Shown here piece after piece: positions 147 through 61,964 of a stretch of DNA of 64,000 nt. The DNA comes from Odontesthes bonariensis (lineage: Eukaryota > Chordata > Actinopteri > Atheriniformes > Atherinopsidae). The position numbers and the translations under genes are program-made. Under the pieces are notes generated by a model. That model did not search any database and was not told where the DNA came from. It worked only from the letters and a program-made list of their open reading frames with translations. The stretch spans positions 25,413,209 to 25,477,208 of the forward strand of contig NC_134510.1 in NCBI RefSeq assembly GCF_027942865.1. Direction: 5' to 3'. Each line of letters starts with the position of its first letter. The stretch's first letter is position 1.

Positions 147-2181
147 CTGCGAGATGCAGCTGATTGAGCATTGTTTCCAGTTTATTGGAGTTGAAACCAG
201 TCCGAGGCCCCGGCGCCCTGTATCCTGTCTGTGGAAGGTAACTGTGACTGTCTGCTTCATTACTGTGGTGATCACCATCATCATCGTGATGGCTGTTGTC
301 GTGGTCACCATCTGCATCATGATGGTCATCACTGTGGTTGTCATCGTGATGGTCTGTGTGGTTGTCATTGCCGCCATGATCGTCGTGATGCTCGTCGTTG
401 TGGTCGTCTCTGTGGTTGTCGTGGTGGTTGTCATTGTGGTGGTTGTCATTGTGGTGGTTGTCATTGTGGTGGTTGTCGTCGTGATGAGCGCCGTCGTCTC
501 TGTGACTGGAGTCGTCGTCGTGATGGTCGGGGCTGCCGAGGGCGACGGTGTGATGGTGCAGCTGCTCCTCCAGGGTGCTGATCTTCCTCTGCAGCAGCTC
601 CTTCAGAGAGCTGGAGTATGTGGAGGATGTGTTCCTCTTCTGTTGGGGGGGGGGTGGAAACACAGAGGTGAAGTCTTAAACAATATCATTGACAGTTAAA
701 GCTGCTGTGACACACAGATAGAGGCACAAACTGGTCTAAGGTGGCATGTGCTGGTCTGCTTTGTTTCCTGAAATGTAGCAGCTGTTTGAGCTTCAGCTCT
801 CATTTTCATTGTCTCTTCCCGTGTCCGTCTCTGCTTCTCTTCCTCTCAGGTAATCCAGGCTTTGCCCTGGTGCGCGCCCTGATTACAAGTCTGTCAAGGG
901 AGATCACGATAATTACTGCTGATTTTAGACACCCCCTCCTTACTCCTCCTCACATATACTCCGTAGCTCCTGACATATGTCTGGGATCCCAATTCAGGGA
1001 AGACAAACAGCATAAAAGGGTGGATAAAATAAACCTGAAAACAGACTTTAAAGCATCCAAATGTCCAGCAGCACCTGCAGTCAATGTAAAACATCACAGA
1101 AGCACCTTAAGTCTGTGACATTCACCTTTGAGCCTGTTGCCGCTCTCAGGTGCCCACAGAGAGACACCAGAGTGGCTCTCTTGGCAAAGGAGAGAATGGC
1201 TTTATGAGCTTAAGTAATTCATTGTCCTCTTGTCTTAAGTGCTCAGTAGACATACCACTCTGGGACTTCGACAAACAGCCTCGTGACAAAAGCATTAATG
1301 TGTCAAAATAAGAAGAAGACACACATGGGAGCGTCACACAACTCCCTCTTCCTAAATCCAAATCTCTCTCATTCATCCGCTGACTAGTACTAACGGTTTA
1401 CTTTAACACACTTCTTTAGAAATACACCCCGTCTGTCTTTCTGTAGTTTGGTCTGAAGTTGATAAAGTTGTCCCCAGCTCTTGCTGCTCACCTGAAGGTT
1501 GTCCAGTCTCTCCTTCAGCGCCTGCAGCATCCTCTCCATCTGCTCCATTGACGACGTGCTGTCCCCCGGAGTCACATGTTTATCCTTCCCCTGGTTGCTG
1601 CTGCCGTACCCTCCATCAGATCGTTGCCCCCCCACAGAGGAGGGATAGTGCGGTGAGTCCGGTATGAGGTTGCGGTTTCCATGGTGACCATGGAGGTTGC
1701 CATAGTGCCCATTGTCAGTGTACGTGTGAAGATTGGCCGTGCCTGCATGATGCGAGCGCGAGGCCGGGCCGTGGCGCTCGTCATGAGGCGACACGCCTCG
1801 TCCAAAGCCTTCACACAGGGTGAGCTTTGCTGTCAGCTCTCTAATGGTCTCCCTCTGGTCCAGGATGATCTCTTTCTGTTGAACGAGGCTCTCCCTGAGG
1901 TGCAGGACGGTGGCTTTGGCCTCTTCGCTTGCCCCCCACCAGCTGTTAGGAGGCACATTTTGATGGCTCGGTCCGCCAGGCCCCGCCGACCCGACACCTG
2001 GACCTGAACCTGGACCTGCAGGGAAGCAGGAAGGGTCTGTGTCCACAGGAATCGGGGTGCACATAAAGCGTGGGTGGGCTCCAAAGTCAGACCCTGAAGT
2101 TGCGTAAACGGGGTTACCTAAAGAAAACAGTGTCAGGAGAAGGTGCAGCCGGAGAGGCAAAGAGTTCGTCATGATCTCCAT
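147..2181 (-). CDS. Neuronal pentraxin-like gene (NPTX family), 5' part: signal peptide and coiled-coil exons
   Basis: Secreted or synaptic pentraxins cluster AMPA receptors; the N-terminal half forms a coiled coil and the C-terminal half is the pentraxin lectin fold. Two exons are visible. Exon 1 is 1492-2181: start ATG at 2181 (or the in-frame ATG at 2172), a hydrophobic leader ending in VYA, then RFMCTPIPVD, a coiled coil with VLHLRESLVQQKE and TIRELTAKLTLCEG, and donor CAG|GTGAGC after LDNLQ. Exon 2 is 147-639: acceptor CAACAG|AAGAGG, SSLKELLQRKISTLEEQL, then a long His/Asp/Asn-rich block, then NKLETMLNQLHLAG and donor GCAG|GTACAC (phase 1). The leader and RF-CT-PVD region look closest to NPTX1, but paralogue identity is not decidable here. 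The pentraxin-domain exons should lie left of position 1. The usual GKNTMGDL stretch is replaced by a GKDKHVTPGD-type sequence. Family call sure; paralogue unsure. Confidence 0.85.
250..575 (-). repeat. His/Asp-coding minisatellite inside exon 2 of the pentraxin gene
   Basis: On the minus strand this stretch codes for about 90 residues made almost only of His, Asp and Asn, with a core of NHHND-type pentads. The core comes from a 15-bp unit (plus strand GTGGTTGTCATTGTG) repeated near 411-475. The reading frame stays open and joins normal pentraxin coiled-coil sequence on both sides, so the expansion is part of the protein. The plus-strand open frame through it is a Val-rich shadow. Confidence 0.85.
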
Positions 2182-61800: not shown

Positions 61801-61964
61801 GAATAAATCTCTTACATGTGGAAGACTTACATTGAACCCCACTCCTCCTTTCTTACAGCACAGGCAGGTGAGGAGCAGCAGAACAAAGGAGACAAGCCCC
61901 GAGCAAGATATGATGATGACGACGTAGGGTGGAGGAGAGAGAGATGCAGCCCTGGTCTGAGAAA
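46805..61964 (-). CDS. lmtk3: Lemur tail kinase 3, all but the signal-peptide exon
   Basis: Membrane-anchored, endosome- and synapse-associated protein kinase. Fifteen coding exons on the minus strand: 61831-61964, 61287-61434, 60333-60406, 60000-60118, 59174-59261, 58258-58406, 58060-58144, 57846-57967, 57195-57344, 50834-57083, 50584-50747, 49365-49498, 48055-48383, 47886-47970, 46805-46935; about 2,719 residues. Order: transmembrane segment ([28 protein letters not shown]); [16 protein letters not shown]; kinase domain with [12 protein letters not shown], lysine in [24 protein letters not shown] and [12 protein letters not shown]. Then [21 protein letters not shown] and [20 protein letters not shown]; a low-complexity acidic tail; [49 protein letters not shown]; final [33 protein letters not shown] and LSLALPPL favour LMTK3 over AATK or LMTK2. 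The tail is far longer than in human LMTK3 (about 1,460 residues). Exon 1 was not found and may lie beyond the right edge. Confidence 0.93.
47344..47368. repeat. (TG)n microsatellite in an lmtk3 intron
   Basis: About twelve TG units on the plus strand (CA on the transcribed strand), inside the last intron of lmtk3 and far from either splice site. Confidence 0.9.
54440..55500 (-). repeat. Degenerate repeated module within the giant lmtk3 exon
   Basis: On the coding strand two short motifs alternate. The first occurs as [10 protein letters not shown] (about 55480), [13 protein letters not shown] (about 55240) and [13 protein letters not shown] (about 54955). The second occurs as LFLTEISS (about 55370), LFLTEIDTA (about 55110), TFLTEIMS (about 54812) and FVFSEIMPK (about 54460). 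Spacing is about 80-115 residues. The sequences between the motifs are acidic and poorly alike. Confidence 0.6.
59406..59444. repeat. (TG)n microsatellite in an lmtk3 intron
   Basis: About nineteen TG units on the plus strand, between the kinase-domain exons at 59174-59261 and 60000-60118. Confidence 0.9.

Follow-up and report, generated by a model that had tools for sequence, protein, structure and literature searches.

The window, i.e., the whole 64,000-nucleotide stretch of DNA analysed here, is, with a probability that we put at about 0.89, one of two copies left after the teleost duplication (3R) of the fourth, 19q13-type, block of the two vertebrate genome duplications (2R). A fourth whole-genome-duplication copy had been proposed in an earlier note on this DNA and is supported: the other three block types coexist with it in the same genome, the pentraxin tree places the window gene outside the known clades and the kinase is LMTK3, all of which are observed, as are the distribution of mir-338 and a pair of cnot3 genes. 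The four-fold 2R block would then be complete, with four pentraxins, four I-BAR proteins and three LMTK kinases, and so the order of duplication and loss becomes testable on three linked neuronal families.

What history would this imply? A vertebrate ancestor would have had one chromosome on which NPTX, BAIAP2 and LMTK adjoined, and two genome duplications would have turned this into four blocks. In the fish studied each of the four types would still include a pentraxin and an I-BAR member; in humans three would, with LMTK3 alone left in the fourth. As for the loss in mammals suggested earlier, the fourth pentraxin and I-BAR gene are not known from the human gene set. The teleost duplication would then have doubled the fourth block, after which C6, where the window lies, would have retained nptx, the baiap2-type gene and lmtk3, and C23 nptx and cnot3.

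Gene content of the window

The order is nptx(-), baiap2-type(+), ndufa3(-), tfpt(+), cnot3(+), prpf31(-), lmtk3(-), and the neighbourhood claimed earlier was confirmed in the sequence for all seven. Between the I-BAR gene and the kinase are ndufa3 (22635..24536, minus strand; tblastn with a human guide not taken from a database, PDB NDUFA3 E 3.4e-35), tfpt (conserved exons only, 25312..27762, plus; Pfam INO80F 49.2 bits), cnot3 (31391..38201, plus; PDB CNOT3 E 1e-76, with Pfam Not3 exons on C6) and prpf31 (40042..44024, minus; PDB Prp31 E 1.5e-133). The genome searched was that of the one species, 945 Mb; its paired genes point to a teleost. A ttyh gene is on C6, 93-106 kb to the right of the window, and another adjoins the C26 baiap2. 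The 12 matches to the GRIN2 C-terminal family are on C26, C4 and C28, with none on C6, and so GRIN2 lends no support to the 19q-type label for C6. In PMC3560075 a 2R paralogon including the TTYH family is described on human chromosomes 7, 16, 17, 19 and 22, and the NPTX/BAIAP2/LMTK block probably belongs to it; the main text of that paper names none of NPTX, BAIAP2 and LMTK, and it cautions that teleosts swapped paralogues between fused 2R blocks.

The other blocks of the same genome

Might the window be the 17q25 locus, nptx1-baiap2-aatk, that received 19q13 genes? Its nptx(-), baiap2(+), lmtk(-) order and orientation are those of human 17q25 (gene content from PMC10334611). In trees with human members only, which do not separate orthologue from ohnologue, the pentraxin is nearest NPTX1 and the I-BAR gene nearest BAIAP2. 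The idea is nevertheless scarcely credible: LMTK3 is the kinase present, RPTOR and CHMP6 guides not taken from a database brought up no exon in the window, and elsewhere the genome has both a pair of baiap2-aatk loci (C28:11.09-11.17 Mb and C26:13.997-14.044 Mb), each with mir-338, and a pair of nptx1 orthologues (C26:20.28 and C4:20.82 Mb), a coexistence that refutes it unless the assembly is chimeric. The refutation that the earlier note had allowed for did not come about: the parts of the separate nptx1-baiap2-aatk locus that it suggested looking for are present, but the nptx1 genes are not beside the baiap2-aatk pairs (C26:14.0, C28:11.1), and so the complete trio is seen in just two types out of four. 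The 7q type is represented by nptx2, baiap2l1 and lmtk2 at C26:17.30-17.40 and by nptx2 and baiap2l1 at C28:20.37-20.40, and the 22q type by nptxr and baiap2l2 at C26:22.249-22.276, where baiap2l2 comes from one weak exon match (E 0.07). No second lmtk2, and on C23 no I-BAR gene or lmtk, was found among the best-scoring genome matches; these three have likely been lost.

The kinase and mir-338

Leaving aside its first exon, lmtk3 extends over 46805..61953 on the minus strand (PDB LMTK3 6seq), with a transmembrane exon at about 61834-61953, a further exon at about 61291-61443, kinase exons from 60404, a giant exon from 57082 whose frame is open to 50822, and C-terminal exons to the stop at 46805-46807. 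It matches full-length human LMTK3 (6seq) in the kinase at E 2.9e-142, with three more matching stretches after the kinase, itself 70-71% identical to that of LMTK3. Of the 49 kinase matches listed, 19 fall in the four lmtk-type genes. In the kinase tree fish AATK and LMTK2 are from this genome, the C26 lmtk2 being without two exons and the C28 aatk without its first three kinase exons, and human AATK and LMTK2 are not from a database. Grouping with LMTK3, not AATK or LMTK2, is preferred (AU 0.978). Identity as AATK is rejected by AU both inside that clade (6e-8) and as its sister (0.023), the SH test not rejecting the sister position (0.20), and the motifs and the absent mir-338 agree with the rejection. 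Both aatk genes carry mir-338 (Rfam 81.4 and 82.6 bits), in the intron that separates the GDLK exon from the SDLALRN exon; none was found in the window, where the corresponding intron is about 113 bases. The C28 and C26 baiap2 genes are linked to aatk and mir-338, while the window baiap2-type gene is instead linked to lmtk3.

A fourth type of neuronal pentraxin

Neuronal pentraxins are secreted oligomers that bind AMPA receptors. Exon 1 of the window gene (1492..2181, minus; ATG at 2181, donor GTGAGC at 1491) encodes the signal peptide and N-terminal coiled-coil part, exon 2 is at 147..639 (minus; with CAG as acceptor ahead of 639 and GTACAC as donor following 147), and exons 3-5 are just to the left of the window, open to a stop codon. 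The features of the family are present: a pentraxin domain (Pfam Pentaxin 118.3 bits against a cut-off of 25; PDB 9lad E 5e-92, 6ype E 4e-89), an N-terminal coiled-coil part that aligns with human sequences not taken from a database, and a signal peptide, judged by eye.

Among the matches listed in the genome there are eight neuronal pentraxin genes, two of each of four types, in which 35 of the 44 matches fall; the trees were built without the remaining 9. The partner of the window gene is at 22.60 Mb on C23 (1.00 in FastTree, 100/83 in IQ-TREE), and the two are 83% identical over query residues 57-103. The pair is outside the NPTX1 clade (1.00; 95.2/98) and also outside NPTX2 and NPTXR, in a tree where the C4:32.77 gene is without its N-terminus. 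Placement inside NPTX2 is rejected by AU (p 0.0008) and not by the more lenient SH test (0.088). As to which 2R type is nearest, AU rejects none (NPTX1 0.68, NPTXR 0.46, NPTX2 0.14). Here and in the other families the human BAIAP2 I-BAR, LMTK3 and NPTX1/NPTX2 pentraxin domains were taken from PDB; for AATK, LMTK2, BAIAP2L1 and NPTXR, for the N-termini of NPTX1 and NPTX2 and for the tail of BAIAP2 the human sequences used have no database source; and the far outgroups PTX3, SAP-like, MTSS1, BAIAP2L2 and TRKB were removed ahead of AU tests.

Could nptx1 and baiap2 have been duplicated in teleosts, and the two fast-evolving copies have moved jointly beside lmtk3 during gene exchange between 2R blocks, exchanges of such a kind being described for teleosts in PMC3560075? 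This is very improbable. Nesting of the pentraxin in the human and fish NPTX1 clade, i.e., its being an NPTX1 orthologue, is rejected (AU p 0.0007, 1.9e-7). A second cnot3, at C23:23.35 Mb, is about 0.74 Mb from the C23 pentraxin, and with the two on the same chromosome the pentraxin would have been in the 19q-type region before 3R.

The His-rich insert noticed earlier is real. A first insert of 81 residues, 11 of them His, follows LTLCEGF (1561..1803, minus), and a second, of 125 residues, has 33 His, 32 Asp and 16 Asn (184..558, minus). The C23 gene has inserts at the same two places, the first, in its exon 1, a His-richer counterpart (32 His in 101) and the second of 201 residues with 71 His and 43 Asp. 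Between the C6 and C23 pentraxin exons dN is 0.20 and dS 1.37 (202 codons): the pentraxin domain of the fourth type is under purifying selection. By analogy with NPTX1/2 the protein is presumably a secreted oligomeric synaptic organiser, and its His/Asp stretch may bind divalent metal or sense pH. More speculatively, and with the odds against it, this subfamily, with two copies here, none in humans and (DDHH)n-type stretches in the oligomerisation region, could organise synapses in response to zinc, copper or pH. If so, it would have a function not known in any mammalian neuronal pentraxin; the His/Asp-rich pentraxin is in any case a testable new feature, its inserts being kept in place in both copies despite a dS of 1.37 in the pentraxin exons.

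The I-BAR gene

The baiap2-type gene (11030..19295, plus; I-BAR, SH3 and C-terminal NPFAHIRLRKTVTNDRSAP) was modelled as 12 exons and a C-terminal exon, with Pfam and PDB support. In exons 1-12, at 11030-18173, acceptor AG precedes exons 2-12, donor GT follows each of the 12 and the phase is kept throughout; the C-terminal exon ends at 19295. In this model the join between exon 12 and that last exon breaks phase, and the exact splice may differ or a small extra exon may exist. Both domains of the BAIAP2 family are present (Pfam IMD 265.2 bits; SH3_9 35.5 bits, cut-off 30), and the I-BAR matches that of PDB BAIAP2 1y2o (E 8e-111). Two peculiarities claimed for it proved correct. The CRIB-like motif SNLVISDPIPGAKPLPVPPEL is absent from the window gene, while both other baiap2 genes of the genome have it (as LSEPLPGAKPLPVPPELA in C28), and the SH3 domain has an insertion of 10 residues relative to the C26 baiap2 and a human sequence not taken from a database (17280..17309, approximate ends, plus). 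The protein may bend membrane without Cdc42 control via CRIB. A search for a relative of the I-BAR exon in prokaryote and viral contigs gave 596 and 26 pattern matches, with no relative among them.

The C28 and C26 I-BARs are 76% identical to that of human BAIAP2 and the window one 65%; it is 65% identical to C28 and 67% to C26. In the best tree, where the fish baiap2l1 genes are without I-BAR exons 3-5 and the C28 one also without its last exon, the window gene is sister of BAIAP2, outside the human and fish clade. The node uniting that clade is weak (62.3/61; 0/31 with far outgroups), and a position inside it is not rejected (AU p 0.27, 0.41 for I-BAR; 0.26, 0.50 with SH3 added), and so the fourth-type status of this gene rests on synteny. 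The earlier claim that neither gene is an nptx1 or baiap2 orthologue therefore stands for the pentraxin, and for the I-BAR gene is the preferred but not the exclusive placement.

This bears on a mixed origin, in which only the pentraxin would go back to 2R, as the fourth copy, and the baiap2-type gene would be a later, pre-3R, duplicate of fish baiap2 inserted between nptx and lmtk3. A position as sister of the two fish baiap2 genes is not rejected (AU p 0.27), but the window I-BAR sits at the slot of the I-BAR gene in the 7q-type block and human 17q25, in the 22q-type block too an I-BAR match adjoins the pentraxin, and the window gene shows the same identity to BAIAP2 of human as of fish. An origin by 3R from C26 baiap2 is rejected (0.019; 0.020 with SH3), and one from C28 is rejected with I-BAR (0.037) and not with SH3 added (0.067). 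We consider the mixed origin unlikely and infer that the gene dates from 2R and is no later duplicate.

Comparison with known systems

Among the open-access papers listed none deals with a fourth NPTX or with this locus; the genes may already have provisional names in genome databases. One gene that might be of the fourth pentraxin type is zebrafish nptx1l (PMC4690400). Fish genes labelled nptx1-like or baiap2-like may be orthologues of neither, which matters where fish mutants serve as models of NPTX1 or IRSp53.

Like NPTX1 and NPTX2, the window pentraxin has a signal peptide, an N-terminal part with RETIRELTAKL and a pentraxin domain; unlike them, it forms its own clade with the C23 gene and, unlike the two fish nptx1 genes (exons 1 and 2), the fourth-type genes carry two His/Asp-rich inserts of up to 201 residues. 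With BAIAP2 (IRSp53) the baiap2-type gene shares a 65% identical I-BAR, the SH3 and a C-terminal TNDRSAP end; it departs from it in having no CRIB, the 10-residue SH3 insertion and a long Ser/Pro-rich exon 9, and is distinct from the two baiap2 genes of its own genome. The zebrafish baiap2a and baiap2b primers, as given in PMC7360740, encode VEAISS and LERNG, as in BAIAP2; these too are teleost IRSp53-type genes, but the window has VELMSR and LPLSG.

The kinase shares the C-terminal motifs LSLALPPL and LLKSP with 6seq, whereas its giant exon, with a frame of 2103 codons from stop to stop, exceeds the whole 1460-residue 6seq chain. By gene content, NPTX1, BAIAP2 and AATK are among the genes of 17q25.3 (PMC10334611), and NPTX2, BAIAP2L1 and LMTK2 among those of 7q21.3 (PMC3038855). 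The window unites the same three families but, unlike either human locus, with LMTK3 as the kinase, with ndufa3-tfpt-cnot3-prpf31 in between, and with neither mir-338 nor, as far as guides not taken from a database show, RPTOR or CHMP6.

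Gene content of the window

The neighbourhood of seven genes that the earlier note had claimed is present, as the coding scan, tblastn (with provisional human sequences as guides) and PDB and Pfam checks give nptx(-), baiap2-type(+), ndufa3(-), tfpt(+), cnot3(+), prpf31(-) and lmtk3(-) within C6:25413209-25477208 of a 945 Mb genome of 187 contigs. From baiap2-type to lmtk3 the intervening four 19q genes follow an order unlike the local one in human, and therefore local reshuffling has occurred. The last three pentraxin exons are just beyond the left window edge, with a reading frame that runs uninterrupted to a stop codon. 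For the baiap2-type gene the model comprises 12 exons and 634 residues, with splice sites and phase consistent and the join to the C-terminal exon provisional. Its exon 9 (15974-16622 (+), 649 bases) is long and Ser/Pro-rich, the matching human stretch presumably being shorter; an intron holds a Tc1/mariner-like transposase remnant (14262-14738 (+), by eye from translation), and at and just downstream of the stop codon are 19 copies of an AGC trinucleotide (19295-19351 (+)). A short tandem array with unit AAATATATACTTAAGTAAAAGTAGAAGTACTCCTGCAA occupies 23711-23817, and such arrays are common in teleosts.

Four block types in one genome

The window is, at a probability of about 0.89, the 19q13-type copy of the 2R block, beside three other types; the SH results and the weakly supported I-BAR node, both described below, are why the figure is not 0.90. 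The block search covered the genome of this one species. There the 27 exon matches of the window I-BAR query fall within five genes: seven each in the window and at C28:11.09-11.13 Mb, six at C26:13.997-14.027 Mb, four at C26:17.335-17.349 Mb and three at C28:20.370-20.383 Mb. Mouse BAIAP2L2 as query added a locus at C26:22.275 Mb, a single weak match (E 0.07) whose translation includes RRYRFLAEKH, a stretch identical in the mouse protein. Lmtk-type genes, which took 19 of the 49 kinase matches, adjoin three I-BAR genes besides that of the window (C28:11.163-11.165, C26:14.043-14.044 and C26:17.389-17.401 Mb), and 35 of 44 pentraxin matches belong to eight neuronal pentraxin genes. The 17q25 type is thus represented by baiap2–aatk on both C28 and C26, the 7q21 type by nptx2–baiap2l1–lmtk2 on C26 and nptx2–baiap2l1 on C28, and the 22q13 type by nptxr–baiap2l2 on C26, its baiap2l2 being the E 0.07 match. 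So the separate baiap2–aatk locus that the note wished to see exists twice, but its nptx1 part did not hold, the nptx1 genes being elsewhere.

AATK carries MIR338 (gene list of PMC10334611; extract of PMC3281898). Full mir-338 is at both baiap2–aatk loci (82.6 bits on C26, 81.4 on C28; gathering 57), with 0/22 mismatches in the mature strand, and is an independent marker for their 17q25 assignment. The same scan did not find it at the C26 lmtk2 locus. The window shows no mir-338 at the gathering threshold, nor any at 44-64 kb with E up to 10, its best partial match having 6 mismatches. A ttyh gene lies on C6, 93-106 kb past the right window edge, and a second adjoins C26 baiap2; these are set, by position only, against TTYH1 and TTYH2, which we take to be at 19q13.42 and 17q25. 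Two tweety exons recur at C4:34.30-34.32 Mb and C181:2991-9977; they score the same at both places and are spaced alike (6.6 and 6.9 kb apart), perhaps as an uncollapsed second haplotype.

Affinities of the three genes

Several of the human comparison sequences are provisional. The eight neuronal pentraxin genes form four pairs: window with C23, NPTX1 (C26:20.28, C4:20.82), NPTX2 (C26:17.30, C28:20.40) and NPTXR (C26:22.25, C4:32.77). The first is well supported in two trees (1.00 and 100/83), and is 55-56% identical to human NPTX1, the fish nptx1 genes being 77-80%. Nesting it inside NPTX1 is rejected by AU (p 0.0007, 1.9e-7), which bears out the earlier suggestion that the window gene is no nptx1 orthologue; nesting inside NPTX2 is also rejected by AU (0.0008; SH 0.088). 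As sister of this fourth type, NPTX1 (AU 0.68), NPTXR (0.46) and NPTX2 (0.14) are all allowed. The human pentraxin family, in the extract of PMC10598717, has no fourth neuronal member, and the absence of fourth-type genes in mammals refers to human.

The kinase was rightly named LMTK3: it groups with LMTK3 (AU 0.978) and has C-terminal LMTK3 motifs. A place inside the AATK clade is strongly rejected (AU 6e-8, SH 0.0001); as sister of that clade it is rejected by AU (0.023) but not by SH (0.20).

Is the I-BAR gene, as the note had it, not a baiap2 orthologue? It is 65%, 67% and 65% identical to human BAIAP2, C26 and C28, which are mutually 76-85% identical in that domain, and in the best tree a weakly supported node (62.3/61) leaves it outside them, but a position inside the BAIAP2 clade is allowed (AU 0.27, 0.41 for I-BAR; 0.26, 0.50 with SH3). 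The CRIB motif, present in C26 and C28 baiap2, is indeed absent from it. An origin as 3R duplicate of C26 baiap2 is rejected (0.019; 0.020 with SH3), and of C28 baiap2 without SH3 only (0.037 versus 0.067).

The C23 partner and the inserts

A second cnot3 is at 23.35 Mb of C23, ~0.74 Mb from the pentraxin there, and therefore C6 and C23 look like a 3R pair of the 19q-type region. The window I-BAR query found no match on C23 and the sole kinase match is 7 Mb away, so those copies were probably lost. Over 202 codons the two pentraxins' exons have dN 0.20 and dS 1.37; they are under constraint. A pentraxin tandem cluster, with at least 3 copies of one last exon, is 2.4 Mb left of the window (C6:22.99-23.03 Mb).

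The window pentraxin does have the His-rich sequence reported for it: exon 1 carries an insert of 81 residues (11 H), exon 2 one of 125 (33 H, 32 D and 16 N). The C23 gene has 101 residues with 32 H and 201 with 71 H and 43 D, including DDHH repeats, at the same sites (after LTLCEGF; between LE(E/D)QL and KLET). His and Asp are each encoded by both of their codons. No such His/Asp-rich insert was found in exons 1 and 2 of two fish nptx1 genes, or in exon 1 of two nptx2 genes and C26 nptxr. From their composition, the inserts might bind metal or protons.

Comparison with known systems

On C26 by itself the 17q-, 7q- and 22q-type blocks each occur once, together with one nptx1, which agrees with PMC3560075, where three 2R blocks are proposed to have fused before 3R; exchanges between 2R blocks in teleosts are also described there, and its main text does not deal with NPTX, BAIAP2 or LMTK. 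The zebrafish baiap2a and baiap2b, as far as peptides from the primers printed in PMC7360740 go, resemble BAIAP2, unlike the gene of the window.
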